A DNA stretch of 24,442 nt from a virus: IMG/VR virus record IMGVR_UViG_3300034073_000041, positions 1 to 24,442 of that record. One strand, given 5' to 3'. The notes under the pieces are model-generated. The model had not been told where the DNA came from and searched no databases. It worked only from the letters and a program-made list of their open reading frames with translations. A program made the position numbers and the translations under genes. Shown here piece by piece: positions 7,129 through 22,822 of the stretch. The number at the start of each line of letters is the position of its first letter. Within the stretch, counting starts at the first letter, position 1.

Positions 7129-7799
7129 TACACCACCTTATCCCTAACCTGCCCAGACCTGTAAGCATCCTGACGGTCAAGACCATCACCAAGACGCTTA
7201 GCAAGGATAAGCGCTTCTTTATACCGGTTAGTTACATTTTGGATTAAGTCTGGCTCACCCTTCAAGAATGTATAAGCCTCTACCAGACATCCATAAAGCA
7301 ATACTGAATCAAAGTTATCGCTCAGCCACGTTGTATTTGTATCCGTATCCGTGACAGCAATAGACGTTGGATAGTAAAAGTAATGCAGCTCTACACTGTA
7401 AGCAGCATCTGGCGTTGGGCCTAAAAGAAATACCCACTCTTTCTCATCCGTGGAATCTGGTCCGAATATGGCATAGCAATAAGGCTCACCAGTATTGCCA
7501 GATCCCGTGGGCGCGGGAAAAGCCTCACGGATAAAGTTCACATCCTTGTTGAGCAAGTACTTGTAAGAACCTGCCGCATCAATCACTGCTATTGAATAAG
7601 GGGCTAAGAAATCCGTAGGCGCCTGTAAGTAGCGATTGTTAATCGTACAGGTTCCAGTCACGTTCTTACGTAGCGATGGAAACTGTATCGTATTGAAGAT
7701 CCGCTGCTCAGCTTGTTTGGCAAACGTCTGAAGTGATGTCGTATCAAACGTCGTTTCACAATAATCTTGTATCGCAGTCTTAAGCTCGCCCCAATTCAT
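7128..7799 (-). CDS. Head-tail adaptor, SU10-adaptor-like
   Basis: A 223-residue protein starting MNWGELKTAIQDYCE with an N-terminal helical part, FAKQAEQRI near residue 26 and a central beta domain. The C-terminus is helical: DNFDSVLLYGCLVEAYTFLK, then RYKEALILAKRLGDG and DAYRSG. The ELKTAIQDY start and the LLYGxLxEAYxFLKGE...DAYRxGQxR end match adaptor/neck proteins of SU10-like and other podoviruses, which form a ring beneath the portal. AAGGAG lies five bases upstream of the ATG. Together with the 324-residue protein it would make the neck. Which of the two contacts the portal cannot be told from this window. Confidence 0.8.
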   Translation of the reverse strand: MNWGELKTAIQDYCETTFDTTSLQTFAKQAEQRIFNTIQFPSLRKNVTGTCTINNRYLQAPTDFLAPYSIAVIDAAGSYKYLLNKDVNFIREAFPAPTGSGNTGEPYCYAIFGPDSTDEKEWVFLLGPTPDAAYSVELHYFYYPTSIAVTDTDTNTTWLSDNFDSVLLYGCLVEAYTFLKGEPDLIQNVTNRYKEALILAKRLGDGLDRQDAYRSGQVRDKVV

Positions 7800-8251: not shown

Positions 8252-8677
8252 CTAAGATACAGTGACACTGTTCAACAATGCTTGACCCACAAGATGGTTA
8301 GGGGTCATGCCGTAATCGTATGATCTTGCACCGCCAACAGGGTTGAAGCCCCACTCGATCGTTCGGCTTCCTTCTAGCGGAACACCCGTATAAAGCGGGT
8401 TAGTTCCTACCGTGTTGTTCGTCTGCATCCCGTTGTAGCCTGACTGGTAATACGAATTGGAATCGGGACGGGGATTCCGTACGGCCTGCGGATCGTCCAC
8501 GGGCCACATTCCTAACTGCAACTGCGGCTGATCAGGATTCCAGCACTCAGGACATGCCAATATATTGACATTTTTTGTCTTAATTACCAAGTCCTTGAGT
8601 TGCTTAAGTTTATACCGAAATCCGCAGATATCACACTGCGCTATGGCAAACTTACCAGATGCAAATTTATTGGGCAT
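8252..8677 (-). CDS. Zinc-ribbon structural-cluster protein
   Basis: A 141-residue protein with CxxC pairs at Cys15/Cys18 (CDICGFRYK) and Cys42/Cys45 (CPECWNPD), spaced as in a zinc ribbon. Next is the conserved-looking WPVDDPQAVRNPRPDS stretch, then a Gly/Asn/Tyr-rich C-terminal half. The same zinc-ribbon-plus-DPQAxRxPRPD layout is familiar from small phage proteins near adaptor genes, which lack a firm function. Zinc binding is predicted from the four Cys. The start overlaps the end of the homing endonuclease gene by 11 bases. Its ancestral neighbour was probably the 324-residue adaptor before the endonuclease inserted. A neck or tail component is likely. Confidence 0.82.
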   Translation of the reverse strand: MPNKFASGKFAIAQCDICGFRYKLKQLKDLVIKTKNVNILACPECWNPDQPQLQLGMWPVDDPQAVRNPRPDSNSYYQSGYNGMQTNNTVGTNPLYTGVPLEGSRTIEWGFNPVGGARSYDYGMTPNHLVGQALLNSVTVS

Positions 8678-9158
8678 TTTCTGTCCAATGGGGTTGAGCT
8701 GGCTCTTTCATAGATGCCCTTATTTCTTGCAACATCTTTCTCATGTCAAGCCTTGCTTGCATAACTTCATCTGGTATTGGATTTGACTGGTTGCCGTATT
8801 TCTTTCCGTTTGGGTCTCGTATTGGATATTTCAACGCCACGGAAATTTGTTCATGTTTTACTACTGTGTACTGATGGATTTGGCTTAAAAACTCCATCGC
8901 CAAGTCGTTTTTTACTCCCCACCTATATTGAACAGACCATCTTCTGCCATTTGGCGTACGATCTCTGCTCGCTACAATTTTCCCGCCAAACCAGTTCATC
9001 AGTAACTCTAAGCATGGCACATTTGTTTGGCTAACCTGAGCATGAAGTACAGTTCTTATGCCATGTCTACATCTATCATTTTTTGCTAGCTCAACAATGA
9101 CGCATCCTTCGCCGTCAAAGAAACCAGCGGCCCAAGCTAATTGTGTTGGTGTAGGCAT
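8667..9158 (-). CDS. LAGLIDADG homing endonuclease (single motif)
   Basis: With the ATG at 9158 the protein has 163 residues and starts MPTPTQLAWAAGFFDGEGCV. The AWAAGFFDGEGC segment (about residues 8-19) is a LAGLIDADG helix, with the acidic metal ligand expected at Asp15 or Glu17. Further family features are VSQTNVPCLELLMNWFGGKI and YRWGVKND. A single motif implies a homodimer cleaving a pseudo-palindromic site. The gene starts one base after the adaptor stop and overlaps the zinc-ribbon start by 11 bases, so it sits as a free-standing gene exactly between two structural genes. An in-frame ATG at 9230 would overlap the adaptor gene by 71 bases and is disfavoured. It is probably a selfish mobile element. 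Confidence 0.88.
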   Translation of the reverse strand: MPTPTQLAWAAGFFDGEGCVIVELAKNDRCRHGIRTVLHAQVSQTNVPCLELLMNWFGGKIVASRDRTPNGRRWSVQYRWGVKNDLAMEFLSQIHQYTVVKHEQISVALKYPIRDPNGKKYGNQSNPIPDEVMQARLDMRKMLQEIRASMKEPAQPHWTENAQ

Positions 9159-9159
9159 T

Positions 9160-10134
9160 TTAGTACCCGCCTGATCCCAAAAATCCCTGCCTCGGTACAA
9201 ACCTAATCGGCGCCTTCTCACGGTCTTCATCTGCCGCTAACTGCCATGCCTCATCATACTGAGCCTTCAGCATAGCCATGCGCTCTAACCCGCCTTCCAC
9301 TTTCATGGATAGCTTATAAGCTAATCCGGCAATCAAAGCCTCTTGGAATCTGAATGGGATGTCTTCCACATTCACACCATTCCCTGCGTCTTGCAACCTT
9401 CTCATCCGCCAATAAACAAGCGTGTAATAAGGTGTCGTAATCGATCCTTGATCCGGGGCCGGCCAAACCGTGACATTTGGAAACTTGGTATTACTTACCG
9501 CATCACCCGCTGTATGCGATGCAGCCGTTGTATTGTTCTGTCCACGCACCACATTATCAAGCGTTGCATAGGCCGAAACACCAGTCGCCACATTCTCGGC
9601 TTGGGTTGAAGTACCGTAGTAATAAACCGTCTCCGTGCCAATGTTTGCATATCCTGCATATGGTATCCCCGTGAGGCTAGACATCGGTATTGACGTATCA
9701 GAGGATGTAATGTTGGCTGCAAGCGTTCCAGTAAAGACATAAGTTTGACCACCCTGCCTGTCAATGTAGATCTGAATAGGCCGCCCCGTGGCAAGCTTGT
9801 TGGGGATGGTTGAATAAGTACTAACGGAGATTCTGCTGATATTAATATCCGTCTGGTTCTGGCTTTCCCCTGTTCGGATAATCGTTTCAACAAGATCAAC
9901 TGTATTAATCGGTAACGGGTAGGTAATCTGATTGGCATAGAGCTGAATAGCACCTTGCTCCATGGTCCATAAATTTATCCCACGGTTTGCAAACTCGGTA
10001 AGCAAAAGATTAAGCGAGCGTCTGGCCGTCCGTAAATCATAGCCAGACCTTAATTCCCTGCCGCAGCGTTCGTACGCTTCCTCAACAAGCTCATTTAAGT
10101 TTGGGTTAAAACTTGTGGTACCGGAGGTGGTCAT
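9160..10134 (-). CDS. Neck/adaptor protein (P22 gp4-like or podovirus neck family)
   Basis: A 324-residue protein. The N-terminal helices LNELVEEAYERCG and YDLRTARRSLNLLLTEFANRGINLW are characteristic of podovirus head-tail adaptor proteins. A central beta domain (about residues 70-215) follows, then VWPAPDQG, YYTLVYWRMRRLQDAG, and C-terminal helices IPFRFQEALIAGLAYKLSMK and EAWQLAADEDREKAPIRFVP. AGAGG lies six bases upstream of the ATG, and the gene starts two bases after the preceding stop. Such proteins bind the portal and complete the neck. The exact family (P22 tail accessory factor versus SU10-like neck protein) is uncertain. Confidence 0.8.
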   Translation of the reverse strand: MTTSGTTSFNPNLNELVEEAYERCGRELRSGYDLRTARRSLNLLLTEFANRGINLWTMEQGAIQLYANQITYPLPINTVDLVETIIRTGESQNQTDINISRISVSTYSTIPNKLATGRPIQIYIDRQGGQTYVFTGTLAANITSSDTSIPMSSLTGIPYAGYANIGTETVYYYGTSTQAENVATGVSAYATLDNVVRGQNNTTAASHTAGDAVSNTKFPNVTVWPAPDQGSITTPYYTLVYWRMRRLQDAGNGVNVEDIPFRFQEALIAGLAYKLSMKVEGGLERMAMLKAQYDEAWQLAADEDREKAPIRFVPRQGFLGSGGY

Positions 10135-10136
10135 GA

Positions 10137-10385
10137 TTACCTCTTAGCTGTCAGCGCCGACTTGCGAAATGCTTCTGCCGTGGGCGCACCTTTAGCACCA
10201 GGCTTTCTCATTTTCTCACCCGATCCTGCCGCAATACGCTTACGCTTGGCATTAATATTGGCGTATAACCCGACCTCGCCGCCCTGCGCAAACTGCATAA
10301 AGTCGGTGTTATCACGTCGGGATTTTAATTTGGCCTTGGGCATTTTGGAAGGGTTGATATCCCCCATTCCCCTGCTTTTCATCAT
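10137..10385 (-). CDS. Small conserved basic protein (82 aa) overlapping the giant gene
   Basis: The C-terminal half, KRKRIAAGSGEKMRKPGAKG followed by APTAEAFRKSALTAKR, is a conserved basic block I recall in several aquatic phage neck clusters. The N-terminal part is MMKSRGMGDINPSKMPKAKL. GGGAG lies six bases before the ATG at 10385, a far better ribosome binding site than those before downstream Met codons at 10367, 10343 or 10298. The first 74 bases are therefore read in two frames, the other encoding the C-terminus of the giant protein. A nucleic-acid-binding or virion-packing role is conceivable from charge; nothing is proven. Confidence 0.75.
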   Translation of the reverse strand: MMKSRGMGDINPSKMPKAKLKSRRDNTDFMQFAQGGEVGLYANINAKRKRIAAGSGEKMRKPGAKGAPTAEAFRKSALTAKR

Positions 10386-13300
10386 ATAAATCTCCCATCA
10401 GGGCGCCTATGCCATAGGGTAAATATGGATCTAATGGGCGCAGGTAATTAGGATACGGCATTTGGAAACTTCCTGAAAGCTCAGGGGGCGGTACAACAGG
10501 CAATTCCCATGGGGGCGGTGGAGGTTGTGTTGGCGGTGTCGTAACAACTGGCGGAATAACCGGTGGATTTACTACCGGAGGCCTAACTACAGGACCTCCA
10601 CCAGTTGGAACAGTTGCGGTGTTGATCGTTGTGTCAGGAACGCCCACTGTTGGAATTTGAAGATCTACAGGAGGCACTCCGCTGGTTGGGGGGCCAAGAT
10701 CTATGGGCGGAACACCGCCGGGAGGAACAAGATCTGCCGGCGGGACGTCTCCGGTTGGTATTATTCCGCTAGGAGGGAATAGCTCACCAACAGGTGGTGA
10801 TACCGATGTATTAATTGTCGAAATATTTAGATCTGGTGGTGGTATGTCTGGGAAGGGTATGGTATCAATTGGCGGGTATATGCCGCCCGGTGGTTGCAAA
10901 CCTTCTGGCCGACTTTCTGTTTCTAATTCTAGTTTGATTGGCGTCCCGTACGCCTCCCCAGTTGCTCCGTTGAAAAATAAATCACCACCAACAACTGGTT
11001 TAATCCCTGAAATTCCTACAATTTGTGGGTTACCCATACCTGTTGTAACAAAAGCAGTTTGATTCAACGGATCAATACTTTGCACAGTGCCGACTAAAAT
11101 ATCAGGCAACGCCGTGTTAATCGTGGTCTGTCCTGATGCTGTATTTAACGGAACATATGACGGCATTTGCACCGTAGAAAGCGTGGAAGGACTCGTGACG
11201 GGAACATACTGCTGGAAGCCGTTTTCGTCTATTGTTTTTTGTACTTGTGTTGCTACACCCTCGCCCATAACAACCTGGCTGCCTGGATTCAACGACGTAG
11301 CGCTTGACACACTAGACGCCGGGACAAAAGCTAGTGTTCCGTTGTTTGTTATGACAATAGAGCCTTTGTCGTTTGACGACACGACCGTACCAATATCAAT
11401 AGGCCCATTTAAAGCGTTGATATTGATAGATTCAGCCAGCTTGGTTGACAATAAAGCTGTTAAACCACCTGTATTTTGTAAAGCGGCTATTGCCTCTGGG
11501 TCGGCTTGAGTTAGCAAATTCAACGCATTATTTTGGATTTGCGTAGCATCAATCGTGTTAGGCGTTCCGTCGGCCATCGTTACATTGAATTTGTTCCCAT
11601 CCAGATTAACGCTATTAACGGTATATCCTTGGCTTTCGTTATCAAAAACCAAGTCAAATATCGTTTCCGTTGGCAAGCTTATTGAAAACTCATTGTTTAC
11701 CGGCCCTTTATCGTCGCCTACTACAGTTGCTGTTGGCTGGTTTGCAATAGACTCTAATAAGATTGGCTGACCTTGATTGTTTGTGATTGGCTTATTATCT
11801 GGGCCAGTAAGCAGACCAACGGTTTGTACTACTGGCGTGACATCCAAGACGTCCTCAATAGTCTTATCAAATCCTTTTCTTGACATTTCATCGGCGTACT
11901 CAATGGTTATTACCCCAAGATTTGCCGCTCTTGATGCGGCATACGCACCCCCGCCAAGACCTAAAGCTATATTTGTTGCGCCAAATACGATCTCCATTTG
12001 AGATGCTACTAATTCTGCTAACTCTTGGGCGTTCTGTGGAGTTGTGTCTGTGATGCCATGAATCTTGTCATTGGCAATTTGTAGAGCCGTTGTAACACCC
12101 TCCGCCACCTGCTCTACACCGTTTATTTTGGCCCAAGTGCCAACCATGTCTTTAATTTGCTGCTTGCTTGCATTCGCAGGTAGGCTTGCGTACCCATTCA
12201 CTAGGCTATCCCTTATTGCAACTGATGTGCCAGGAGCCGCGCCTTTTAAAGAGCTTAAAAGAAACTTATTTCCTACCCATTCGCCAATATATTCAGCAAC
12301 ACCAGAACCTAGAGTTCTTGTTAGATTGTCTACATCTGACAAACCCCTAACTTGGCCGTCCCTAAACGTATCGTTCATTGCCACTATGGTCGGTGCTATT
12401 GCGCTTGACCAAGCGGTTCCCCCGCTTAATAAAATTGATAAGCCAGAAAGAACGCCGGACGACACAGCAAGTGTTTTTTCTACATCAGGGCTTGTAGCAG
12501 CAATATTTCGTGCTGCAAAAAAGGCATCTCTTGAAGCCTCTCCAACGCGTTCCGCCGCTTCGGTTTGATTTAATCCACGAAGCACGCCTTCAACAAATGT
12601 TGCCCCGGTTCCTCCGACTGCCATAGCCATGTGGCCCAAACCGGCAAGATACGGACTTCCTGCTGCCGAGTAAGAATTTAACGGGGCTTCTGTTGGCTGT
12701 TTATAAGCCGCGCTAGTAGCTACGATTCCAGCACGCGTTGACATATCTGAAGCTCTTGCAGCAGCAATATTGTAGGCAGATGCGTTCAGTTGATTTGCAG
12801 AACCTGTTTTACTAATCAACTCATTAGCTGCTATTACATAACTGCGATAGTCTTCTGGGTCTTTACCGCCCCCTGCCGCTTGGAATCCTTGTAACGTGTA
12901 CATACCATTAGCTGCTCGCGCTTGCGGTACATCAGTCGAACCTGGGACTTCCACGCCCGTTGTAGGCGCCTTTGGCGATATTTCATTGCCTCTGTAATCG
13001 TAGGTTTTACCGTTAAGCTCGTATCCAGTTACTCCGCCTTTCGCATTCGTAATTAACGTAGCTTCTTTTGATATTCTGTACTCATTACCTTGGGCGTCTT
13101 TCAATACTGTTTTTCCTAGATCACCCTCATAAAACTTACCACCATAGCTAAATGAGGCACCTTTTCCGTATGCTAATTCAGCCATCTCCCTAGCTTGCTC
13201 AAGCGTCGGTGCACGATCAATCAGCATGGCTTCTAGCTGGGCTTGATTGAGGTTGTAGTAATCCAAGGCACCTGTTCTTTGCGCCTCTCTTATTTGCGCA

Positions 13301-16300
13301 ATCGCATCTTTATTGGCAAGCTGGCCAACACCCGTATCTTCTGCCTCTGTACCGGCCATCTTTGAAAGCGCCGCCGGATCTCCGCTAATCAGCGCCTGTG
13401 CAAACTGAAGTGCGTTGTCATATCCGGCATATTCATCAACACCAGTGACCGGTTTTGACATATCCGTTGAAATCATCTCACCGGGAGGTCTAACAATCCC
13501 CGTCGTTGCCACTTCGCTACCAAGTTCGGTCTCGTTAATGTCCCTAAATAACGCCTCACCTTGGATGGTTTCAGTCCTTGGTGTACTCGTTAACACCTCT
13601 TTCTGTACAGTATCCAAACCAGATAGATCAACAGCCGGGGGCTTTTGTGCGGTATTTGTAGCAGCAGCAGTTGATAAACTCTGGAAAACGTCCTGATTTC
13701 TCATGACAAAATTAACAACGCCCGCCGGGTTTTGTGCAAGGCTCGCTATATTTTTGCCTCCAGAAGCCACCGTTTCAATCAAAAGCCTTGCTTGAGGTGC
13801 TGTAAGCGCACCACCACTTGCGTCAACAATTGTGCCGATGACCGTAGGCTTAACACCTGCCAAAGCCATTTGACCTAAATCTATCTCACCCGTAGATATA
13901 AGTTGCGTTACAGCATTACCCACCGCGCTAGAAACTCCAGTAGGCAACCCAGTAGTAATCGAATTAACCGCATTGGCCGTTAACTGACCCATGACAGGCG
14001 CAACACCGCCGGTTATGAAACCTTTCTCAAAATCACCGCCGGTTAATTCAGATACCGTACCGTTGTATATGCCATTCACAATAGCCGTGGCCGCATAACC
14101 AGCCACTGAAGCAGGTATGCCCGCCGCCATCAGTGATCCTGTTAGACCCGTCCCGCCAAGAGCGGCCTGAGCTACAGCACCCTCTACACCAGCAACAGCC
14201 GCCGGTGCCGCCCCAATCAGTTGTGGAAGTATCTGTGGCGCAAGGATTGATGCGCCAAATGCAACCAATGTTGATATTGTCTTTTTGTCTGATGTATCTG
14301 TAAACGTCGTGCCAAATACAGGCTTACCAGAATCATCAACTGAGAAGCTATATACAGTTCCGCCTTTTCCAGTATAAGTTGCTCCTAAGCTTGGCGCCTC
14401 TTCACCAGTCTCTGGATCGATTAACTTGGTAACTTTGGTTTCGGTTGGCGGGCCGGCCTCTACGTTGTAATCAAGCTCAGTTACTTCAGTAGGCTTGTAC
14501 TTGCTTAGTTCTGATACATCCTTAATACCAGCGTTCAACAAACCTCTCGCAATATCAATTGCCACCTGGTCAAATGTCGTGGGCTCCTTACCCTCTGGGA
14601 ATAGCTTCTTGGCTTCGTTGTAATCAAAGCCAACGCTTTCACCAGATGTTTTATAAACACCGCCGCTTGAGTTTTTGAGGTCAAAGTTTTGCTTGACTTG
14701 ATTTGCAAGGTTTAACAAATCATTTGCCGAGTACTGCTTTCCTTTGTAATCAGTCAACTTGACATCGCTAAGGCCTGTTTTGAACTCCTCTTCCTTAACG
14801 TAATTTTGCAGCCCAGTTAATAGATCTGAACGCTTATCTTCTGTGCCAATGTAATTGACCACATTGGATAAATCCATGTTGTTTTTCGATGCAAAATCAA
14901 CAATCTCACTGTATGAAAGCTGCTTATCTTCACCGGCAGCTGTTTGTAAACCTTCAATAATTGGCTTGTCAGCCACGTACTTCTGCAAACCTGCTAATAG
15001 TTCGGGCTGTTTATCTGCCGCACCTATGTATTTAACTATATCCTCAAGCGTAAAGTTATTAGCAGTCGTGTAATTAAGTATCTCGTCATACGATAATTGT
15101 TTATCAGACCCGGCAGCTGTTTGTAGCCCCTCGGATATTTGTTTATCAGTATTGTATTTTGTTAATGCTTCTGGCGTTACATTAATTGCCTTGGCTACAT
15201 CTGCAATAGGTATTTTGTTTTGATTCGCATATTCCAGGGCCGCATCAAATGTTATTTTTCCGTCTTTATCTGCAAAAGTCTTAAGGCCGTTAAGTATTGA
15301 TTCTGTTGTTGGCGCAGCAGTTGTTTTAACTGGCTCTTCCGCTATTGCCTTTCCTGCCGTGCTTATTCGATTCCATTGATTATATCCAACCGGTCCAACC
15401 GCTTTTTCAAATAAAGTTTGAATTTGCGAGTCTGATAGACCTTTTGATAAAAGTCTTGCGTATTCCTTGCCCCAAGCTTGTTCAGATGTTTGTGTTTCCG
15501 TCCATTCGCTCGGTCCGGTGCTAGGTGCGGTACTTGCAGGAGGTGTAGTAGTTTTCTGGCTTAAAAAGTCACTAACTTCCTGTACCGTATAGCCAGTAGC
15601 ACTTGCGAGTTGTTCGTTGGTTACACCGTATTGATTTTTGTAGTTGTTTATCTCAACAGACTTCTGAGCATCTGTAAGGTCCGTCCGCTTCATAATGCCT
15701 TGCGTGAAGGCTTGCATATAGATCGGACTTTTATAATCTATGACGGGTGTTCCCTGCTCCTTAACAGTTGCCACGGTTGACGTTGGCGTAGCTTGTGGAT
15801 AGGCTTTTATTGATTGAGCACCCGTCCAATTCCCGTACTCGTCTTTTCCAAAAATGCGATTGATCTGATCGTATTCTGCTGGCGTACTTGCGTAATACCT
15901 TGCGTATCCAGCAAGCTCCTCCATGGTCATACCAAGCGCTGCGGCACTCTCACCTTCGCTTAATTCATTCCTCTCTATCCTGTCCATGACTGCTTTGACC
16001 GCAGCCTTTGGGTCAGTCCCCACTCTTCCAAAGAAATCACCCTTGACCGAGTCCATTTGGACTTGGTTCATTCTTTCTTCTTTGGTATACGGCATCCCAG
16101 TTACAGGATCTCTGCCGTAAGGTGCATTTGCGTTCAAGTTTGCCTGCTCCGCTGTTAGTGCGGCAAACTCATTAAGCGCGCCTTTGTGGATTATCTGTTT
16201 TCCATCCACGCCTTCTACTAAAACATAGTTACTTCTGTCATCAAGAATTTTTTGTATATCGCTTGGTGATATACCAGTAGCATGTGATGCAAACCCTATT

Positions 16301-18861
16301 AAATCGCTATCCGATAACCCATACTCTCTTTGTATGTTTAATAATCTAGCGCTATCTGAATAAAGCCATTTTTGGGCATCTTCATTTAATAAATAATCCG
16401 ATCTGATGGTACTTAATATACCAAGCGCGTTCCTTTGCTGCGGCGTCAGTTTTTCTGGATCATATCCATAGTACCCATCCTTGACGTAGGTACTGTGCAT
16501 CTCACTGTAAGGTATATCTGTACCCTCTACAAATGTACCGAATTTACCGCCAGCCTCCTCAAACTTTCTTTGATTATCTAGCAGCGTTGCAACTTTAGAA
16601 CCAGCGTCAGGATCGTAAAAGTATTGACCCTGACTTGATCCAACAGCACGTATTGGTTTACCTGTTACGGGGTCATATCCAACAAAAGAACTAATGCGAT
16701 ATAACTCGTTTACATTTTCGCCTGTTATTGGCTTGCCTGATACATCTAAAAAGACTGTGTTCGCAGCAGCTTCCGCATCTGACTGACGACTGCCAATAAC
16801 ACTTCCCAATAGTTGCTGCGTCGTCATCCCTGGCTGATACAAGTTCGCAATCTCAGCTTGAGCTCCATAGCTTGTACCTAGTCCGGCCTTGGTGTAAGCG
16901 CTTATAAATGCTTGCTTATCTGCCTCTGGTATTTCATTAAACCTGGTTCTGTCGTATGCGCTATCCGCTAGCGCCGCATCTAATTCATAAAGCCCTGTAG
17001 CGTCTGAACTTGTTAGGTAATTCTGTATTGCCTGCTCTCGGCTAATAGGATTTAAAAGCCTAGATACTTGATCGTCTGAGAAACCCGTGGCGGTTGCTAA
17101 ATCTTTTTCGGATAACTTGTTTTGCTGTAAATACGTTTTAATGCTTGCCGCTTGCTCACCTATATTTTTGTCTTCGCTTGCAAGCACTCCATTAACAAAT
17201 GTCTTAAGCTGATTTAATTCTTTGCCTGTTTTATACTCTGTAATTGTATTTGCATTTACACCTAAATAAGTAGCCAACTCATCAATCGTCATATCCCTAT
17301 CGTCAGCAAAATCGAGTGCTGCGTCATAGGTAATTTTCCCGCTTGAATCGGCTAAGGCATTTAACCCTGTCCTGATACTTGAATCTTTTACATAATCGGT
17401 GATTGCTTTTGGTGTTACGCCTAAATAACCTGCTAGCTGGTCATTACTTAGGTTATTTGTTCTTGCGTAATCAAGAGCTGCATCAAAACTAATCTTGCCA
17501 TCAGTTCCGGCAAGTGCATTTAATCCGTCACGAATATCGGTCGTATTAATTGATTGCGTAACCTTATCTGCCGCAATCCCAAACATGCTGTTTAGTGACT
17601 TACTGGGGTCAATCCCGTTGTCTCTTAGGTTGTCAGCAATATAGTCCAAATTGCTTGACACCAAACTTGACATCTCAGCTGGCGTTTTGCCAAAGAACTT
17701 AGCTAAATTCTCTGGGGATACCTGACCTTGAGATGCCGCTCTGATCGCATCCGCAAGATCTACTGACGTTACATCCTTACCGTCAACCTTTTTTGTTGTG
17801 GCTAGCCTATTTAACGCTAACCTGTCGTCTTCATAATTTAGGCTGTCAACAATCTGCTGCGGCGTTGTGTCTTTGAATTTACCTTCTAGCGCATTAGCAA
17901 CTGCTTGAAATGACAGATTGTTGTTGTTTGCGTAGTTAACAAGCGCTTCATAAGTAATGGAGCCGGATGTCGGTATGAGCGCTGTTATTTCAGAAACTAT
18001 CGTGTCTTTTGTTTTTCCAGAAGCAGCATACTGTTTGTTTACACGCGTGTACTCGCTCTCTGGCAAACCCATCGCCTGTTCATACTCGGCAATTGCTTTT
18101 GGTGTTGCTGCAAGTGTTGATTTTGCTTGAACTGCTTCGTATCCGCCGTATTGATTAAATTCACTTGTCGGTACACCTCCAGTCATCGCCCTATACATTA
18201 GGTCGTTAGCGATCCCTGTAGTGACAGTAGGGGGTGGTGGCGGTGGTGGCGGTGGTGGCGGTGGAGCTTTATTAATACGCGTGTATTCGCTCTCCGGAAG
18301 GCCCATCGCTTTTTCATATGCAGCGATTGAATTGGGTGTCTCTGTAAGCGTTGATTTTGCGCGTAAAGCATCCCACCCGCCGTATCTATCAAGCTCACTT
18401 GTCGGCACGCCTCCTCCGACCATCATCCTATACATTAGGTCGTTGGCAATATCTACCGTTAGCGTTGGGGGTGGCGGAGGCGGCGGCGGAGGCGGCGGCG
18501 GCGGAGGCGGCGGAGGTGGAGGTGGAGGTGGAGGTGGAGGTGGAGGTGGAGGTGGAGGTGGAGGTGGAGGTGGAGGGGGTGGAGGTGGCGGTGGAGGTGT
18601 TTGGGCAGCGATACGAGCAGCTTCTTGGTCAACTGCTGCTTGCCGCTCAGCCAAAAGTCTGGCGGCTTCTTGTTCGGCGGCCTGTCTATCAGCCGCCAGA
18701 ATAGCTTGGTAAGTTGCGTCTAATTGTTTTTGTGATTCGTTTACATTGTTTAAAGACGCAGCCGCCTGTGGACTATTTGCGCCAAAATATTCAACTGCTA
18801 AAAAATACGTCCCAATAGCAGAGTTGAGAGAATTTTGGGCTATTTCTAACGAAGACGCCAT
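10312..18861 (-). CDS. Giant putative internal virion/ejection protein (2849 aa)
   Basis: An uninterrupted frame of 2849 residues. Residues 1-88 form a helical, coiled-coil-like head. Pro89-132 is an unbroken polyproline run, followed by a ~67-residue module (133-199), a second Pro run (200-211) and a second module copy (212-277). Residues about 380-1330 hold repeated helical units; at least seven have an LAxxLGVTxxxIxxY-type core resembling helix-turn-helix domains. Hydrophobic Gly/Ala-rich segments lie near 1527-1595, 2129-2160 and 2292-2315. Residues about 2655-2795 are Pro-rich with VPP[IV]DL repeats. Size, position between capsid and neck genes, and membrane-seeking segments suggest an ejected internal virion protein. 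I see no lysozyme or protease motif. No strong ribosome binding site precedes the start. Confidence 0.82.
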   Translation of the reverse strand: MASSLEIAQNSLNSAIGTYFLAVEYFGANSPQAAASLNNVNESQKQLDATYQAILAADRQAAEQEAARLLAERQAAVDQEAARIAAQTPPPPPPPPPPPPPPPPPPPPPPPPPPPPPPPPPPPPPPPPPPPPTLTVDIANDLMYRMMVGGGVPTSELDRYGGWDALRAKSTLTETPNSIAAYEKAMGLPESEYTRINKAPPPPPPPPPPPPTVTTGIANDLMYRAMTGGVPTSEFNQYGGYEAVQAKSTLAATPKAIAEYEQAMGLPESEYTRVNKQYAASGKTKDTIVSEITALIPTSGSITYEALVNYANNNNLSFQAVANALEGKFKDTTPQQIVDSLNYEDDRLALNRLATTKKVDGKDVTSVDLADAIRAASQGQVSPENLAKFFGKTPAEMSSLVSSNLDYIADNLRDNGIDPSKSLNSMFGIAADKVTQSINTTDIRDGLNALAGTDGKISFDAALDYARTNNLSNDQLAGYLGVTPKAITDYVKDSSIRTGLNALADSSGKITYDAALDFADDRDMTIDELATYLGVNANTITEYKTGKELNQLKTFVNGVLASEDKNIGEQAASIKTYLQQNKLSEKDLATATGFSDDQVSRLLNPISREQAIQNYLTSSDATGLYELDAALADSAYDRTRFNEIPEADKQAFISAYTKAGLGTSYGAQAEIANLYQPGMTTQQLLGSVIGSRQSDAEAAANTVFLDVSGKPITGENVNELYRISSFVGYDPVTGKPIRAVGSSQGQYFYDPDAGSKVATLLDNQRKFEEAGGKFGTFVEGTDIPYSEMHSTYVKDGYYGYDPEKLTPQQRNALGILSTIRSDYLLNEDAQKWLYSDSARLLNIQREYGLSDSDLIGFASHATGISPSDIQKILDDRSNYVLVEGVDGKQIIHKGALNEFAALTAEQANLNANAPYGRDPVTGMPYTKEERMNQVQMDSVKGDFFGRVGTDPKAAVKAVMDRIERNELSEGESAAALGMTMEELAGYARYYASTPAEYDQINRIFGKDEYGNWTGAQSIKAYPQATPTSTVATVKEQGTPVIDYKSPIYMQAFTQGIMKRTDLTDAQKSVEINNYKNQYGVTNEQLASATGYTVQEVSDFLSQKTTTPPASTAPSTGPSEWTETQTSEQAWGKEYARLLSKGLSDSQIQTLFEKAVGPVGYNQWNRISTAGKAIAEEPVKTTAAPTTESILNGLKTFADKDGKITFDAALEYANQNKIPIADVAKAINVTPEALTKYNTDKQISEGLQTAAGSDKQLSYDEILNYTTANNFTLEDIVKYIGAADKQPELLAGLQKYVADKPIIEGLQTAAGEDKQLSYSEIVDFASKNNMDLSNVVNYIGTEDKRSDLLTGLQNYVKEEEFKTGLSDVKLTDYKGKQYSANDLLNLANQVKQNFDLKNSSGGVYKTSGESVGFDYNEAKKLFPEGKEPTTFDQVAIDIARGLLNAGIKDVSELSKYKPTEVTELDYNVEAGPPTETKVTKLIDPETGEEAPSLGATYTGKGGTVYSFSVDDSGKPVFGTTFTDTSDKKTISTLVAFGASILAPQILPQLIGAAPAAVAGVEGAVAQAALGGTGLTGSLMAAGIPASVAGYAATAIVNGIYNGTVSELTGGDFEKGFITGGVAPVMGQLTANAVNSITTGLPTGVSSAVGNAVTQLISTGEIDLGQMALAGVKPTVIGTIVDASGGALTAPQARLLIETVASGGKNIASLAQNPAGVVNFVMRNQDVFQSLSTAAATNTAQKPPAVDLSGLDTVQKEVLTSTPRTETIQGEALFRDINETELGSEVATTGIVRPPGEMISTDMSKPVTGVDEYAGYDNALQFAQALISGDPAALSKMAGTEAEDTGVGQLANKDAIAQIREAQRTGALDYYNLNQAQLEAMLIDRAPTLEQAREMAELAYGKGASFSYGGKFYEGDLGKTVLKDAQGNEYRISKEATLITNAKGGVTGYELNGKTYDYRGNEISPKAPTTGVEVPGSTDVPQARAANGMYTLQGFQAAGGGKDPEDYRSYVIAANELISKTGSANQLNASAYNIAAARASDMSTRAGIVATSAAYKQPTEAPLNSYSAAGSPYLAGLGHMAMAVGGTGATFVEGVLRGLNQTEAAERVGEASRDAFFAARNIAATSPDVEKTLAVSSGVLSGLSILLSGGTAWSSAIAPTIVAMNDTFRDGQVRGLSDVDNLTRTLGSGVAEYIGEWVGNKFLLSSLKGAAPGTSVAIRDSLVNGYASLPANASKQQIKDMVGTWAKINGVEQVAEGVTTALQIANDKIHGITDTTPQNAQELAELVASQMEIVFGATNIALGLGGGAYAASRAANLGVITIEYADEMSRKGFDKTIEDVLDVTPVVQTVGLLTGPDNKPITNNQGQPILLESIANQPTATVVGDDKGPVNNEFSISLPTETIFDLVFDNESQGYTVNSVNLDGNKFNVTMADGTPNTIDATQIQNNALNLLTQADPEAIAALQNTGGLTALLSTKLAESININALNGPIDIGTVVSSNDKGSIVITNNGTLAFVPASSVSSATSLNPGSQVVMGEGVATQVQKTIDENGFQQYVPVTSPSTLSTVQMPSYVPLNTASGQTTINTALPDILVGTVQSIDPLNQTAFVTTGMGNPQIVGISGIKPVVGGDLFFNGATGEAYGTPIKLELETESRPEGLQPPGGIYPPIDTIPFPDIPPPDLNISTINTSVSPPVGELFPPSGIIPTGDVPPADLVPPGGVPPIDLGPPTSGVPPVDLQIPTVGVPDTTINTATVPTGGGPVVRPPVVNPPVIPPVVTTPPTQPPPPPWELPVVPPPELSGSFQMPYPNYLRPLDPYLPYGIGALMGDLYDEKQGNGGYQPFQNAQGQIKIPT
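18031..18228 (-). repeat. Duplicated module, copy 2 (residues 212-277 of the giant protein)
   Basis: The 66-residue copy shares IANDLMYR, GVPTSE, YGG, AKSTL, TP and AMGLPESEYTR with copy 1 at 18265-18465. The DNA also retains matching stretches, for example ctatacattaggtcgtt in both. Each copy is preceded by a polyproline run, so the duplicated unit is polyPro plus module. Confidence 0.9.
18229..18264 (-). repeat. Second polyproline tract (12 Pro)
   Basis: Twelve consecutive Pro codons (residues 200-211 of the giant protein) join the two copies of the ~67-residue module. On the plus strand this is a tgg/cgg repeat. It is the shorter counterpart of the 44-Pro tract at 18466-18597. Confidence 0.95.
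18265..18465 (-). repeat. Duplicated module, copy 1 (residues 133-199 of the giant protein)
   Basis: This 67-residue copy is homologous to the module at 18031-18228, with one extra Gly in the GG(G)VPTSE segment. Synonymous and amino-acid differences between the copies show that the duplication is not very recent. Its function is unknown. Confidence 0.9.
18466..18597 (-). repeat. 44-residue polyproline tract with an exact hexamer microsatellite
   Basis: Every codon from 18597 down to 18466 is CCN, giving Pro89-Pro132 of the giant protein. Within it, plus-strand bases 18512-18571 are ten perfect copies of GGAGGT (CCA/CCT codons on the coding strand). The flanks are CCG/CCT/CCA mixtures. The hexamer block suggests recent expansion by slippage. 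The plus strand is G-rich enough to allow two-tier G-quadruplexes. Confidence 0.95.
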
Positions 18862-18875
18862 CGTTCAACCAACTA

Positions 18876-19166
18876 TTAAGCGCAACCGCCTTTGTTCATC
18901 TTGACCATCTTTCCCTTGGTCTTTCCTTTTGTAGCTACACCATTGATACTAGGCGCGGCTGTTTTTACAGCACCCATTTTCTTGGGCATGACCGCACCAC
19001 CATCTTTATAGCCAGCCATCTTCTTTGCAGGTTTCTTTTCCATTGATCTTTGCTCCGATAGTCCAATTGCAATCGCTTGCTTAGGGTTAGTTACTTTCTG
19101 GCCCGAGGAAGACTTAAGTTTACCTTCCTTGAACTCTTTCATTACGACGCCTACCTTGTCTTTCAT
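18876..19166 (-). CDS. DUF6496-like small basic protein
   Basis: The N-terminal part reads MKDKVGVVMKEFKEGKLKSS followed by SGQKVTNPKQAIAIGLSE, the signature of the DUF6496 family as I recall it. The C-terminal half is Lys/Met/Gly-rich and ends in VATKGKTKGKMVKMNKGGCA. Function is unknown; the family is common in phages and bacteria. The ATG overlaps the stop of the 317-residue gene (ATGA), so translation is coupled, and the giant gene begins 14 bases after its stop. The end carries the GKT[KR]G motif found in the two genes upstream. A DNA-packing or minor virion role is inferred from charge and context. Confidence 0.85.
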   Translation of the reverse strand: MKDKVGVVMKEFKEGKLKSSSGQKVTNPKQAIAIGLSEQRSMEKKPAKKMAGYKDGGAVMPKKMGAVKTAAPSINGVATKGKTKGKMVKMNKGGCA

Positions 19167-20116
19167 ATATACCTTCCGCGGGTCTTGCCACGCTTTGCAA
19201 TACCATCACCACGGCTAGAAGCAGATCCTACCTTACCGCCGCGCTTCATACCCATCTCAATCACATCATCACTACGGCTGGATCCGCCAAGCTGTCTACG
19301 CTTATTAGCTTGTGTCTCAAGCCTTGCTTTACCCATGTTCTTTTCAAATGGAAGCCGACCGCGTGGTGACTCTAACTGAGGCATGGACTCACGGCGCTTT
19401 ACCAAGTCCTTCCCTTTGGCGGCAAGTTCTCCACCTCTTGTAGCCAAATCACCGCCACGGATAGCTACCTCAGCACTCTTTGCAGCTTTTTGTGGTACCG
19501 TAAGAGCTTTTGCCGCCTCCTGCGGAATCCTTGGCTCAACCCTGGCTTTTGCTGCTTGCGGTGCTAGCTTAGCTGCTAGTCCAGCCCCGGCAGCTTTTAG
19601 ACCCTTCAATAACGGTCCACCTACAAGATTCATCTCTGGCGTCACGCGCTCAATGGGCTTGTCATAAGCTTTCAGCCGCTCAATCTCAGCCTTTACATCT
19701 TTCTTATCAGAAGGTTTGATCTCTGCTTTAGGCGCTGCTTTAGGTGCCGCCCTAGGAGTTTCTGCCTTTACCGCGGGTTTTGTTGCAGTCTTTGTAGGCG
19801 CACGGCTAAATCCTGCTGTGCTTGGCTCAACTAACTCTGTATCACCTTTTGCCTCTATACGGGGTTTAGTCATGATAGGGCTAGGCGTGGCAACACTTGT
19901 TTCGGCCCGTGGGCCTCTTAGCATCGCCTGGTCCATGGCCGCAGCATCTCGTGCCTCGCGCATGGCAATTCCCATGGCACGGTCTTTGTCTGCGCCACCT
20001 GACATTACCGCTTCACCAGAACTAGAGCGAACAATCTCTCCGCTGCTATCCCTTAGCGGCTCCCGATCAATATCCGGAATATCACCGCCCTCTTGGAACC
20101 GCCTGCGCTTCTTCAT
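19163..20116 (-). CDS. Ala/Lys-rich low-complexity protein with terminal GKTRG motif
   Basis: A 317-residue, strongly basic and Ala/Pro/Lys-rich protein. The N-terminus (MKKRRRFQEGGDIPDIDREP) is followed by a short helix with AMGIAMREARDAAAMDQAM. A long disordered stretch with APKAAPKAEIKPS-type repeats occupies about residues 85-150. Gly/Ala helices GPLLKGLKAAGAGLAAKLAP come next, then three IRGGD/TRGGE/AKGKD-type repeats near 215-235. It ends DGIAKRGKTRGRYI. I do not recognise a family. It is sandwiched between two small basic proteins with the same kind of C-terminus. It may be a scaffold, an internal capsid protein or a DNA-condensing protein; none is proven. Confidence 0.75.
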   Translation of the reverse strand: MKKRRRFQEGGDIPDIDREPLRDSSGEIVRSSSGEAVMSGGADKDRAMGIAMREARDAAAMDQAMLRGPRAETSVATPSPIMTKPRIEAKGDTELVEPSTAGFSRAPTKTATKPAVKAETPRAAPKAAPKAEIKPSDKKDVKAEIERLKAYDKPIERVTPEMNLVGGPLLKGLKAAGAGLAAKLAPQAAKARVEPRIPQEAAKALTVPQKAAKSAEVAIRGGDLATRGGELAAKGKDLVKRRESMPQLESPRGRLPFEKNMGKARLETQANKRRQLGGSSRSDDVIEMGMKRGGKVGSASSRGDGIAKRGKTRGRYI

Positions 20117-20138: not shown

Positions 20139-20160
20139 AATTCCGCCCATGGGCGGAATT
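20139..20160. terminator. 22-bp perfect palindrome, possible weak terminator or processing hairpin
   Basis: The sequence aattccgccca followed by its exact reverse complement forms a 22-bp palindrome centred on CCATGG. On the minus strand it overlaps the stop codon of the 85-residue gene and can fold into a nine-base-pair stem with a CATG loop. It is followed by only a short AATTTG, so termination would be weak. A second small inverted repeat (ctact...agtag, 20125-20136) lies just downstream. Attenuation or RNA processing before the 317-residue gene is possible. Confidence 0.5.
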
Positions 20161-20416
20161 ACTTCATCTTGATCATCGTGCCTTTGGTCTTACCGCGCTT
20201 TGCACATCCATCAGCAGCGGTTACATAGCCACCATTCTTGAACATCTTGCCAAGGTTGGGACGCTTGTCTAGCTTACGCAGCTTCTCATCTTCCATCTGC
20301 TGCTGCATAGCACCGCTTTCTTTGACCGTGGGGACGGTATCAAAGTTAGGGTTGTAAATGGAATCGCCGTGGTAACCACGGCCTTGACGAGGGTCATCTC
20401 TATTCATTCTTGCCAT
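20159..20416 (-). CDS. Small Lys/Gly-rich protein with terminal AKRGKTKG motif
   Basis: With the ATG at 20416 the protein has 85 residues: MARMNRDDPRQGRGYHGDSI at the start, a helical centre (SGAMQQQMEDEKLRKLDKRP) and a C-terminus MFKNGGYVTAADGCAKRGKT followed by KGTMIKMK. AAAGGA is seven bases from this ATG but only about one from the alternative ATG at 20422, which would form an ATGA overlap with the preceding stop. The C-terminus is closely similar to that of the next gene, with a shared K-x-GG-x-V...DG-x-AKRGKT[KR]G pattern. Function is unknown. A minor virion protein is suggested by position. Confidence 0.82.
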   Translation of the reverse strand: MARMNRDDPRQGRGYHGDSIYNPNFDTVPTVKESGAMQQQMEDEKLRKLDKRPNLGKMFKNGGYVTAADGCAKRGKTKGTMIKMK

Positions 20417-20418
20417 GG

Positions 20419-20670
20419 TCATTTCCTTTCAGAGAGGGCATCAATTTTTGCTTCAAGCCTTCCAATGCCTGAGTCAAAGCGTTCCATAAGTTTTTCAAGA
20501 TCCTGCCTAACTTCTGCGCGAGTGATGTGATCACGGGCAATTTCCTCCCGAGTTCTGTTCAATAGGATCTGGATGCGCTTCTGTTCATCTGAAGCTTGTT
20601 TAAGCATGAACATTACCAGGCCCACTAAGAACGATGTGATTAGATTCCAGACCAGAGCACCCGTTTCCAT
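20419..20670 (-). CDS. Membrane-anchored coiled-coil protein (83 aa)
   Basis: A single hydrophobic segment at about residues 7-23 (VWNLITSFLVGLVMFML) is followed by a charged helical region with heptad-like spacing, through LNRTREEIARDHITRAEVRQ and LEKLMERFDSGIGRLEAKID. This is a membrane anchor with a cytoplasmic or periplasmic coiled coil. The ATG directly follows the TAA of the upstream gene (TAAATG). Small proteins of this form in phages include holin-like and spanin-like proteins, but no lysis gene is adjacent. A role in ejection or membrane docking is equally possible. Confidence 0.8.
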   Translation of the reverse strand: METGALVWNLITSFLVGLVMFMLKQASDEQKRIQILLNRTREEIARDHITRAEVRQDLEKLMERFDSGIGRLEAKIDALSERK

Positions 20671-20958
20671 TTAGCACTTCCATCTGCGTCTTGCCTGACG
20701 TAGTCGGCTATTAGGGTCCTTGGCTGCTTCAGGGAAATCCTTCATTTGTCCGGCAGAACGAGCACAAAAAGACTTCCTTCGTGCCGCATCTTTCGGGCCG
20801 GGATTATCGCTAGTCACAGCCGTCTTTAGCTTGCTGCCAGGATTAGCTGCACGGTAGGCTTTGACACCTTTCTCCGTCATCCCAGCACCTTGTTTGGTAG
20901 GCCGGAAATTGCCAGACTTTACTGACGTAGCAATCCCCATGCCCTTGGCTTTAGCCAT
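20671..20958 (-). CDS. DUF6321-like conserved small basic protein
   Basis: A 95-residue protein starting MAKAKGMGIATSVKSGNFRP. The conserved blocks GMTEKGVKAYRAANPGSKLK, RRKSFCARSAGQMKDFPEAA and DPNSRLRQARRRWKC identify a family I recall as DUF6321. It is frequent in cyanophages and other aquatic phages and has no known function. The two Cys (in SFCARS and the C-terminal residue) and the many Arg/Lys suggest nucleic-acid contact. The ATG overlaps the preceding stop by eight bases (ATGGCTAA). No strong ribosome binding site is visible, so translation is likely coupled. A longer in-frame start at 21018 would run 68 bases into the preceding gene and is unlikely. Confidence 0.88.
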   Translation of the reverse strand: MAKAKGMGIATSVKSGNFRPTKQGAGMTEKGVKAYRAANPGSKLKTAVTSDNPGPKDAARRKSFCARSAGQMKDFPEAAKDPNSRLRQARRRWKC

Positions 20959-21223
20959 AAAACACCGTGACTTTGGCGTTTGACAAGGTGGCGTATGCGC
21001 TTGTTTTACACCAAACACCTTGGCCAGGAATAACCACGTTAAAGGTCTCCCCGTTAGCTACGGTGTTAATGGTGAATAACGTTGTTCCGCCAGACCCGCC
21101 ATCTTTGATAATCACGCTACCAGCGGAACCTCCTGGTTCAACCACCAACCCGCGAACACGAGTTGGCGTTGCGCTAACAGCCCCAGATGCGGCAAGTGAT
21201 ATGCCGGAGACATCTGTTTGCAT
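20951..21223 (-). CDS. Small beta-rich phage protein (90 aa)
   Basis: The protein begins MQTDVSGISLAASGAVSATP and contains RVRGLVVEPGGSAGSVIIKD, GGTTLFTINT and VVIPGQGVWCKTSAYATLSN, ending KVTVFYG. The alternating hydrophobic pattern suggests a compact beta-sandwich. AGGAG lies six bases before the ATG. I recall similar small proteins in the structural clusters of aquatic phages without assigned function. It may be a capsid decoration or connector piece. Confidence 0.82.
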   Translation of the reverse strand: MQTDVSGISLAASGAVSATPTRVRGLVVEPGGSAGSVIIKDGGSGGTTLFTINTVANGETFNVVIPGQGVWCKTSAYATLSNAKVTVFYG

Positions 21224-21857: not shown

Positions 21858-22796
21858 TCAGTTATTGGGGTTGGAGTCAATCCGTTTCTTGCGAGCGGCC
21901 ATCATTTTCTCCCGCCACACGGGATCGGCCCAAAGCGCCTTGGCAGCAGCTTTCTTGGCAGCTTTTACTTCTTCACGATTAGCAATCTCTTTGTTATTGG
22001 CTGTCTGCGCGGCATGGTAATTAGGATCAGCCCACATGGCTTTTGCGATGTCACTAGTCTTTTGCTTGGATTGCTCAGTGTTCCTTGAGCGCTTAATAGC
22101 GTCAGTCCTTTTATTGCGTACGGTAGTGTCGGCCCATGTCTGTTTGCTGGCTTCAGATTTCAGGCTGCGTGCTTCTTCTGTGCCTTGAACTTCTTTTTGC
22201 GCCTCGGTCACTTTCTTTACGTAGTCAGGATCCTGCCAAAGCTTAGATGTTGCTTCGCTCATGGTTTGGCGGAAGACTTCTGTATGAATGAATGCGGCCT
22301 TACCTGCTTCACGTCTAGCTATGACTTCAGGATCTTGCAGGGCTTTGCGTATAGCCGCAATGGTTTGTTCGCGGAATGTTGGGTTAGCCCATCGGCGCTT
22401 CTGGCCCTCGCTGTACAGAGCTATCTTCTCAGGGGTGCTGTTTGCCTCTTTGACTTTGTTTCGCCATTCTTCAGTTCTGATAGCCCCAGACGTTCCCTCG
22501 CCCCCGTCGGTAAGATTGAACAGGGTTCCGGTTCCAAGGTCTCTCCTACCGTACACCTCAATCATCATCATTTCTTCGTAAAAGGCTTCCGCCTCATCAA
22601 GGTTGTCTTTGATGATCTCAATAATAGGCTCGCGCTTCTCCCTTCTAAGCAATGCTAGAAAGGCACCAAAGCCTTTGTTATGGCTAGCCTTTACTTTCCA
22701 GTGATACCAGGCCCGATCGCCCGCTCCTTTTCCTACGTACACCACCTGCTGGTTCTTGGTAGGCCGTGGGTCTTTGTAGATGTAGACGTAATACAT
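21858..22796 (-). CDS. GIY-YIG homing endonuclease with W-x-DP repeat tail
   Basis: A 312-residue protein. The GIY-YIG nuclease domain spans about residues 1-100: MYYVYIYKD (GIY), VVYVGKGAGDRAW (YIG) with catalytic Arg28, a Glu-rich helix near 73-75 (AFYEEMMMIEVYGRRD) and LFNLTDGGEG. A NUMOD3-like TEEWRNKVKEAN segment follows. Six spaced copies of a W-x-[DN]-P-type motif make up the tail (RRWANP, ALQDP, LWQDP, TWADT, MWADP, LWADP), probably DNA-binding helices. AAGGAG lies exactly five bases before the ATG at 22796, so that start is preferred over 22850. The gene sits alone after the capsid terminator with its own candidate promoter. It is a selfish free-standing endonuclease. Confidence 0.93.
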   Translation of the reverse strand: MYYVYIYKDPRPTKNQQVVYVGKGAGDRAWYHWKVKASHNKGFGAFLALLRREKREPIIEIIKDNLDEAEAFYEEMMMIEVYGRRDLGTGTLFNLTDGGEGTSGAIRTEEWRNKVKEANSTPEKIALYSEGQKRRWANPTFREQTIAAIRKALQDPEVIARREAGKAAFIHTEVFRQTMSEATSKLWQDPDYVKKVTEAQKEVQGTEEARSLKSEASKQTWADTTVRNKRTDAIKRSRNTEQSKQKTSDIAKAMWADPNYHAAQTANNKEIANREEVKAAKKAAAKALWADPVWREKMMAARKKRIDSNPNN

Positions 22797-22801
22797 ATTA
22801 G

Positions 22802-22807
22802 CTCCTT
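22802..22807 (-). promoter_or_regulatory. Strong ribosome binding site for the GIY-YIG gene
   Basis: The minus strand reads AAGGAG five bases upstream of ATG 22796. It selects this start over the more upstream ATG at 22850, which would lie within the candidate promoter. Confidence 0.8.
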
Positions 22808-22822
22808 GGTTAGTGAGAGCTA

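Follow-up and report, generated by a model that had tools for sequence, protein, structure and literature searches.

A virus of bacteria, represented by an IMG/VR record of which we analyzed a stretch of 24,442 bases (the window), encodes a single protein of 2849 residues that contains no cysteine. The frame of this giant occupies a fixed slot between the major capsid and adaptor genes, a block of it has been replaced between close relatives, and its C-terminal end and one internal module (modC) are conserved. With moderate confidence we consider the giant to be an internal virion protein that would travel in the particle with the genome and enter the host along with it, in addition to the ordinary ejection set.

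The giant frame and its genomic setting

The frame runs on the minus strand from an ATG at 18861 to a stop at 10312 and takes up 35% of the window. A sequence-only reading of this DNA had described one uninterrupted frame of 8.5 kb, a third of the window, at positions 10312-18861. Length and coordinates were upheld; that reading named no strand, and the frame was found on the minus strand, the plus strand having stops throughout the interval. It had also missed three features of the product, namely the absence of cysteine, a net charge of -120 and a pI of 4.5. The frame is under purifying selection relative to the near twin L002, with a dN/dS of 0.10 over 1627 codons (0.028 and 0.014 for the two adaptor genes). 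Because of this selection, and because giant frames recur in other contigs, the frame is not an assembly accident. The features of the region are as follows.

22954-23862, minus strand: major capsid protein gene (Phage_capsid_4 / Mu gpT-like, phrog_371)
18876-19166, minus strand: p96 (DUF6496), left border of the slot, with an RGKTKG-type C-terminal tag
10312-18861, minus strand: giant gene, 2849 aa, pI 4.5, cysteine-free
18466-18597, minus strand: poly-proline run of 44 Pro, residues 89-132
18031-18465, minus strand: two modules (residues 133-199 and 212-277) around a second poly-proline run of 12 Pro (residues 200-211), 70% identical over 66 aa
17002-17994, minus strand: helix-turn-helix (HTH)-like helical repeats, residues about 290-620 (Pfam HTH_3/HTH_26; repeats of related profile in relatives)
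14692-15354, minus strand: second helical repeat block, residues 1170-1390 (AlphaFold2 ten-residue blocks mostly at pLDDT 73-90)
14287-14694, minus strand: modC, modelled as two helices plus five strands, widespread in the family (A1, A2, A5)
13552-14283, minus strand: conserved Gly/Ala hydrophobic segment, residues 1527-1770
11935-12483, minus strand: second hydrophobic region, residues 2127-2309
10762-11826, minus strand: C-terminal region, residues 2346-2700, common to L002, L018, L143, L040 and L014, with small beta (OB-like) units by eye
10513-13123, minus strand: block without blastn match to L002, a recombinant replacement with flanks 88% and 93% identical
10315-10482, minus strand: C-terminal signature, residues 2794-2849, containing PNYLRPL..YLPYGIGALMG
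10137-10385, minus strand: p82 (phrog_16028), right border of the slot, overlapping about the last 24 giant codons
9160-10134, minus strand: SU10-adaptor-like protein of 324 aa (25.5 bits, slightly under the Pfam cut-off of 27)
7128-7799, minus strand: SU10 adaptor of 223 aa (85.7 bits, cut-off 27)

Every assignable gene of the window lies on the minus strand. In the order of transcription they encode an unnamed protein, the major capsid protein, a GIY-YIG-like homing endonuclease, the small proteins b176, b90, p115, p83, p87, p317 and p96, and the giant, followed by p82, the 324-aa adaptor-like protein, an HNH endonuclease, p141, p86, the 223-aa SU10 adaptor, p142 and fibre-like proteins. The giant has the major capsid gene on one side and a pair of SU10-type adaptor genes on the other, in agreement with the position between capsid and neck genes assigned to it earlier.

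Several other features of this cluster were recorded. The capsid protein is 86-99% identical in the best 80 of at least 600 matching contigs and 75% identical in the best named phage, a conservation that suggests a common lineage with few cultured relatives. The GIY-YIG-like ORF after the capsid gene (21858-22850) and the HNH ORF between the adaptor genes (8667-9230), the latter matched in one of 31 clade loci tallied (L018), are likely mobile homing endonucleases inside the structural cluster. The p115 protein (20671-21018) matches C-terminal parts of far larger phage proteins (residues 435-525 of 525 in phrog_10346 and 860-928 of 928 in phrog_3477), its domain being free-standing in the window and fused elsewhere. 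Up to four adjacent, otherwise size-variable basic proteins encoded between capsid and adaptor of one phage share the C-terminal tag ASxRxDGxAxRGKTxGxxx, carried in the window by 20159-20422, 19163-20116 and 18876-19166. This tag was found near the C-terminus of 143 out of 13,823 stop-to-stop ORFs (69 loci) and in none of the reversed or shuffled controls; with a looser pattern one copy was also seen in the named Planktothrix phage Pag-Yong1. It is perhaps a virion-targeting tag.

Architecture, family and payload exchange

The layout proposed for the protein from its translation was borne out. The N-terminal part is rich in Ala, Gln and Glu and, judged by eye, coiled-coil-like; the poly-proline linkers with duplicated modules, the HTH-like repeats and the Pro-rich tail are present. 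Hydrophobic Gly/Ala segments lie within residues 1527-1595, 2127-2161 and 2284-2309 and are not extreme on the Kyte-Doolittle scale, the 19-residue maximum of the giant being 1.61, lower than those of p218 (1.79) and p83 (2.16) of the window. Two HTH profiles exceeded their Pfam cut-offs, HTH_3 with 53.8 bits (cut-off 23) and HTH_26 with 44.9 bits (cut-off 22). Every 100-residue bin across the HTH regions is net acidic (-8 to -1), and the HTH signal was below cut-off in the eight relatives scanned.

In an AlphaFold2 model of residues 1170-1770 the helical repeats and the small beta unit were well predicted and the hydrophobic part poorly. When modC was modelled alone it gave two main helices and five strands, and the blocks of its core had a confidence between about 70 and 90. 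The quality of the two models is modest (mean pLDDT 67 and 65), and fold searches with them returned nothing significant: the best Z scores were 4.4, for the ParB HTH structure 6s6h tied with an unrelated enzyme, and 4.0. Many HTH proteins were among the weak matches of the second helical repeat block. A third alignment, of residues 2000-2720 (A3), was thin.

In searches of Pfam and PHROGs the giant gave generic HTH matches but was covered by no other family and by no fibre or spike profile, and no ejection family was matched in these collections or with the module profile. The earlier statement that no familiar enzymatic domain is visible holds, none being found above the Pfam cut-off or in PHROGs. 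An identity as an enzyme or polyvalent protein was rejected, as no enzymatic or LPD domain exceeded the cut-off and only HTH-type families reached that of Pfam. Identity with an N4-type virion RNA polymerase was likewise rejected (no such domain in Pfam or PHROGs), and so was that with a tail tape measure protein, for which Pfam and PHROGs gave no profile match; the window carries adaptors of the SU10 type. No tape-measure or other described family confidently matched most of the length. The A1 profile of the conserved module matched no solved structure by sequence, and a scan of genome contigs with it for prophage or cellular homologues confirmed no relative. The surroundings of related capsid genes, 23 loci of which several are short or cut, yielded neither a giant frame nor modC.

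Among named phages the whole giant gave one weak match, UOF80803.1 of MW202710.1 (tblastn E 4e-3); a query with UOF80803.1 returned itself alone, and a query with L145 nothing. This hypothetical protein of 508 aa shares with the giant an HTH-like N-terminal unit, by eye, and modC with the Gly/Ala segment, a likeness that is strong only after profile iteration; it differs in being more than five times smaller and in coming from another phage type. No publication on the giant family was found in the literature covered, which included the available parts of PMC12633501, PMC5512222 and PMC12143481.

Related loci were gathered with the giant itself, the 223-aa adaptor, the capsid protein (best 80 of at least 600) and the A1 profile. 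A clade was delimited by at least 71% identity of the 324-aa adaptor-like protein to that of the window, a line drawn after a gap had been seen in the data. It comprises 48 loci, of which 31 have at least 3 kb upstream of the gene for the 324-aa protein; in all 31 (29 contigs, L025/L141 and L042/L142 being pairs) the slot holds an ORF of at least 770 aa. Since 15 of these (L130-L143, L146) had been fetched by the giant's own module, the bias-free count is 16 out of 16. Complete slot ORFs measure 1241 to 2855 aa from stop to stop. The C-terminal signature ends all 31 giants, in 27 by regular expression and in L037, L135, L137 and L146 by eye; the version in L135 is a variant common to L015 and L019. 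Among clade loci with 0.7-3 kb upstream, eight of nine have the signature and L012 lacks it. Below 71% adaptor identity the capsid gene is present in 39 of 42 loci and the signature in none of these 39; the largest ORFs that separate capsid from adaptor there, three in number (1002, 960 and 845 aa), look unrelated by eye. Named phages matched by capsid or adaptor include Pelagibacter HTVC023P/HTVC027P, Roseobacter CRP-901/902, Planktothrix Pag-Yong1, Caulobacter RW, DSL-LC04 and others. In the six inspected (HTVC023P, HTVC027P, CRP-902, Pag-Yong1, RW and DSL-LC04) no giant occupies the slot. No isolate of the clade itself turned up in the collections searched.

The family is marked by the C-terminal peptide PNYLRPL..GIGALM, the beta module with the Gly/Ala hydrophobic segment, low-complexity Pro/Ser/Thr stalks and helical repeats. 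An iterated modC profile reached 27 ORFs, 24 in the slot and three (L001, L144, L145) outside it, in loci where the flanking genes of the slot are not in view; first-pass tblastn E values for these three were 4e-3, 5e-12 and 1e-5, respectively. In L001 (MW202710.1) the modC protein directly follows an annotated head-to-tail connecting protein, and in L144 and L145 a single ORF (233 and 129 aa) separates it from the phrog_3287 hub gene. Four giants (L006, L008, L009 and L146) were not reached by the profile and were aligned to modC by eye, L146 being also matched by tblastn (9e-5). The C-terminal parts of these four contain long SxS-type serine repeats, like serine-rich adhesin stalks. The giant of L042 contains DUF4214 (E 1e-10).

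Comparison of close relatives showed that the payload is exchanged between related viruses while the C-terminal end is kept, and in this sense the mosaic architecture suggested before is real. Between L018 and the window the p82, 324-aa and p141 proteins are 96-98% identical, p86 88% and the 223-aa adaptor 84%; the giants are 43-44% identical in the best segment and 25-39% in others, but 89% in their final 55 residues. The DNA of L002 is 88% identical to the window over 13124-18042; blastn finds no match between 10513 and 13123, and from 9154 to 10512 the identity is 93%; across residues 2346-2849 its protein is still 40% identical. Strong DNA identity resumes at 10512 in L002 and, at 75-87%, only at 10500 (L018), 10461 (L136) and 10452 (L044), that is, in the last 46-66 giant codons. 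On the other side it stops at the end of p96, at 18884 (L136) and 18876 (L044); the matches of L002 and L018 begin inside the giant and are uninformative for this border. Within the gene, L018 and L136 have scattered matches, mostly of 65-67% with a few short ones of 74-75%, and L044 has no DNA match. The L019 giant is 38-81% identical per 50-residue bin over residues about 2000-2340, compared with 36% ahead of this stretch and 25% behind it. As the constant end and the start of p82 overlap, roughly the final 24 codons may be under additional constraint at the DNA level; relatives whose DNA has diverged there nevertheless retain the protein signature.

Absence of cysteine

At the frequency seen in the other window genes (32 Cys in 5064 aa) about 18 cysteines would be expected in the giant, and none is present (Poisson P about 1.5e-8). 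The two remaining frames of that strand contain 43 and 181 TGT or TGC codons and the giant frame none, so the avoidance is frame-specific. Across the giant family we counted two cysteines in 49,671 aa of 34 stop-to-stop ORFs, a tally in which partial ORFs, near-identical ORFs and the three cousins from outside the slot are counted as well and others, e.g. L131, L133 and L139-L141, are left out. One of the two is at position 10 of L142, perhaps before the true start, and the other within serine-rich repeats of L037.

Seven podophages (N4, T7, P22, SU10, SP6, phiKMV and epsilon15) were used as a benchmark; N4 adds no protein to the non-ejection list, which covers the other six. Ejection proteins are cysteine-free in 19 cases out of 24 (0.33 Cys per 1000), other virion and packaging proteins in 9 out of 43 (6.74 per 1000). 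At 400 aa or more the figures are 12 of 15 and 0 of 21 (Fisher 3.6e-7), and the 21 include fibres, spikes and the nozzle; some shorter fibre and needle proteins are cysteine-free, as are the scaffolds in four of the five benchmark phages with one tallied. The exceptions among ejection proteins are four from epsilon15 with 1-2 Cys each and T7 gp14 with one. All five ejection proteins of SU10 (gp20-24, according to the accessible part of PMC9509320), the type phage of the adaptor family in the window, are cysteine-free. The ejection list was based on accessible portions of PMC9509320 for SU10 and of PMC12633501 for T7 and N4, and on paper abstracts for P22. For SP6 and phiKMV it partly followed record annotation. 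The remaining proteins in it, those of epsilon15 included, were assigned from background knowledge of these phages.

Cysteine exclusion has been stated for N4-type RNA polymerases (PMC3915230, PMC4837373, both in available excerpts), and for the injected N4-type enzyme injection was already given as the reason (same excerpts of PMC3915230). No statement of it as a general rule for ejection proteins was found in the literature, searched mostly without full texts. In our view the exclusion of cysteine speaks well for ejection but does not settle it. The giant is cysteine-free despite its length, a property measured here that lies outside any published definition of ejection proteins. Inside the clade the test is weaker than in the benchmark because the fibre-like p885 family is nearly as cysteine-poor (8 Cys in 18,066 aa, 13 of 20 ORFs free) as the giant family (0 in 35,653 aa, 21 ORFs) and the capsid protein is cysteine-free (0 in 1,800 aa); p317 has 2 in 3,579, and the 223-aa adaptor, p141 and p115 carry 17 to 28 Cys per 1000.

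Two relatives also encode a separate cysteine-free protein, about 2506 aa long in one and 2084 aa in the other; both have ART-PolyVal and LPD39 domains and resemble DarB-like proteins.

L153:4879-12396 (G003, 49.2 kb) and L155:9431-15682 (G001, 46.4 kb): cysteine-free polyvalent giants (ART-PolyVal, LPD39)

The G003 protein weakly matches the N4-type virion RNA polymerase family phrog_2206 (E 5e-7). Next to it lie three cysteine-free proteins: one of 249 aa that matches phrog_4287 'DNA ejection protein' (E 4e-5), one of 312 aa and one of 469 aa, the last one cysteine-free from the start chosen, with one Cys before that start. This block of 249, 312, 469 and 2506 aa appears to be the ordinary ejection block. 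The corresponding 555-aa frame of L155 has three Cys within positions 1-30, which may precede the true start. The slot giant lies outside this probable block, between capsid and adaptor; the window ends before the region of the polyvalent giant. LPD39 was detected in all five clade records of at least 39.7 kb, in neither of two shorter ones, in one of 12 cousin records fetched by capsid protein (G016, whose giant slot is not in view) and in none of six named phages. Three of the five clade records (G001, G003 and G005) bear the giant's module, and in the other two the slot is cut off, locus L013 beginning 80 bases before p82 and L021 inside p141.

The giant as a possible ejected protein

An internal protein built of a tag and a payload would explain why the C-terminus is constant and the remainder exchanged, why a flexible stalk adjoins the tag, and why cysteine is excluded and the sizes range widely. 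The conserved C-terminal peptide of about 55 residues would act as a tag that retains or docks the protein in the head or neck, and the Pro/Ser/Thr-rich stretch before it as a flexible leader. The long N-terminal part would be a string of small, cysteine-free, mostly helical units, threaded unfolded through the tail channel and then refolding, and the Gly/Ala hydrophobic segment could insert into the host membrane. Evolution would retain the tag and swap the payload.

Ejection with the DNA, as the sequence-only reading had it, is favoured by the cysteine exclusion that separates long ejection proteins in the seven podophages, by the location in the late structural gene cluster, by the place of modC after the head-to-tail connecting protein (L001) or near the phrog_3287 hub (L144, L145), and by the lack of cysteine in the most probable ejection block of L153. 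Against it stand the want of an ejection-family sequence match or a significant fold match, and the place of the gene between capsid and adaptor, outside the probable ejection block, a block that in two relatives contains a giant of its own. The near-equal cysteine poverty of p885, the cysteine-free capsid protein, the cysteines of the L155 555-aa frame, the epsilon15 and T7 gp14 exceptions and benchmark lists drawn partly from annotation and background knowledge also count against it, as do the modest hydrophobic maximum and the serine-rich stalks and DUF4214 of relatives, which would also suit a surface adhesin. On balance the giant may well work like an ejection protein; it is not filed as a member of that group because its packaging is something we infer and its gene lies away from their usual, though not obligatory, position in an ejection block next to the hub/nozzle gene.

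Many ejection proteins are matched by size and place only, and ejection sets typically consist of mosaic proteins that vary in size and diverge fast (review PMC8954989, available part). N4 gp50 is a loosely linked string of domains with a membrane-type N-terminal part (PMC12633501, available part). Like it and the other ejection proteins of N4, T7, P22 and SU10, the giant is very long, cysteine-free (T7 gp14 has one Cys), late-encoded and size-variable; unlike them it has no RNA polymerase or lysozyme domain or sequence match, occupies another gene position and is a hypervariable cassette with a constant C-terminal tag. With the polyvalent proteins (ART-PolyVal, LPD39, DarB-like; PMC5512222, available part) it shares very large size, many domains and a place among phage late genes, but no enzymatic or LPD domain was found in it and it has a separate genome slot.

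The main rival reading, to which we assign a clearly lower likelihood, is an external head or neck fibre or whisker, anchored at the neck by its C-terminus, with a projecting stalk and variable N-terminal modules that bind host surfaces. Phage tail and head fibres with low-complexity stalks resemble the giant in repeats, extended Pro/Ser/Thr stretches and one conserved end with the rest swapped, as in receptor-binding proteins. The Pro/Ser/Thr stalks lie beside the presumed anchor, and the serine repeats of L006, L008, L009 and L146, the DUF4214 of L042 and the cysteine-poor p885 of the clade point the same way. A fibre would explain stalk and exchange equally well as ejection, and the conserved hydrophobic core less easily: the best conserved internal part is modC with the Gly/Ala segment, not a shaft or receptor domain. 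In addition, the conserved end of the giant is C-terminal, no fibre family matched it in Pfam or PHROGs, and none of the 21 long non-ejected benchmark proteins is cysteine-free, though some shorter fibre and needle proteins are.

We think it unlikely that the giant is an injected anti-host or anti-defence protein acting in the cytoplasm, polyvalent-like in purpose, whose HTH-like array would bind incoming DNA or host regulators. The HTH families in Pfam and PHROGs, the LPD39 proteins in all five clade records of at least 39.7 kb, three of which bear the giant's module, and a cassette variation that fits an arms race are compatible with such a role; the lack of enzymatic and LPD domains above cut-off, the uniformly acidic HTH bins, which do not suggest a DNA-binding array, and the sub-threshold HTH signal in the relatives scanned argue against it. 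A scaffold-like or length-setting head assembly protein, staying in the virion or leaving before maturation, would fit the nearby capsid gene and the usually cysteine-free scaffolds, but is very improbable, as a relative (L154) has a separate cysteine-free protein of about 291 aa (phrog_28737) upstream of its capsid gene, a place usual for scaffolds, and the giant is missing from cousins whose capsid proteins are 86-91% identical.

Returning to ejection, we tentatively put forward a more specific proposal, which we hold to be possible rather than probable: the slot would be a cargo bay whose fixed C-terminal tag loads any fused payload. The clade would exchange payloads of about 1,200 to 2,850 residues, each phage injecting a different giant besides its ordinary ejectosome and the polyvalent protein. 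In its working principle the giant would be a new variation on phage ejection proteins. If ejected, it would be a second giant delivered by a short-tailed phage, and the slot would amount to a naturally evolved, exchangeable means of loading large proteins into phage heads. If valid beyond seven phages, the cysteine test would allow long ejected proteins to be picked out cheaply, from sequence alone, among giant phage genes without a name, and the constant C-terminal peptide offers a short, directly testable element.
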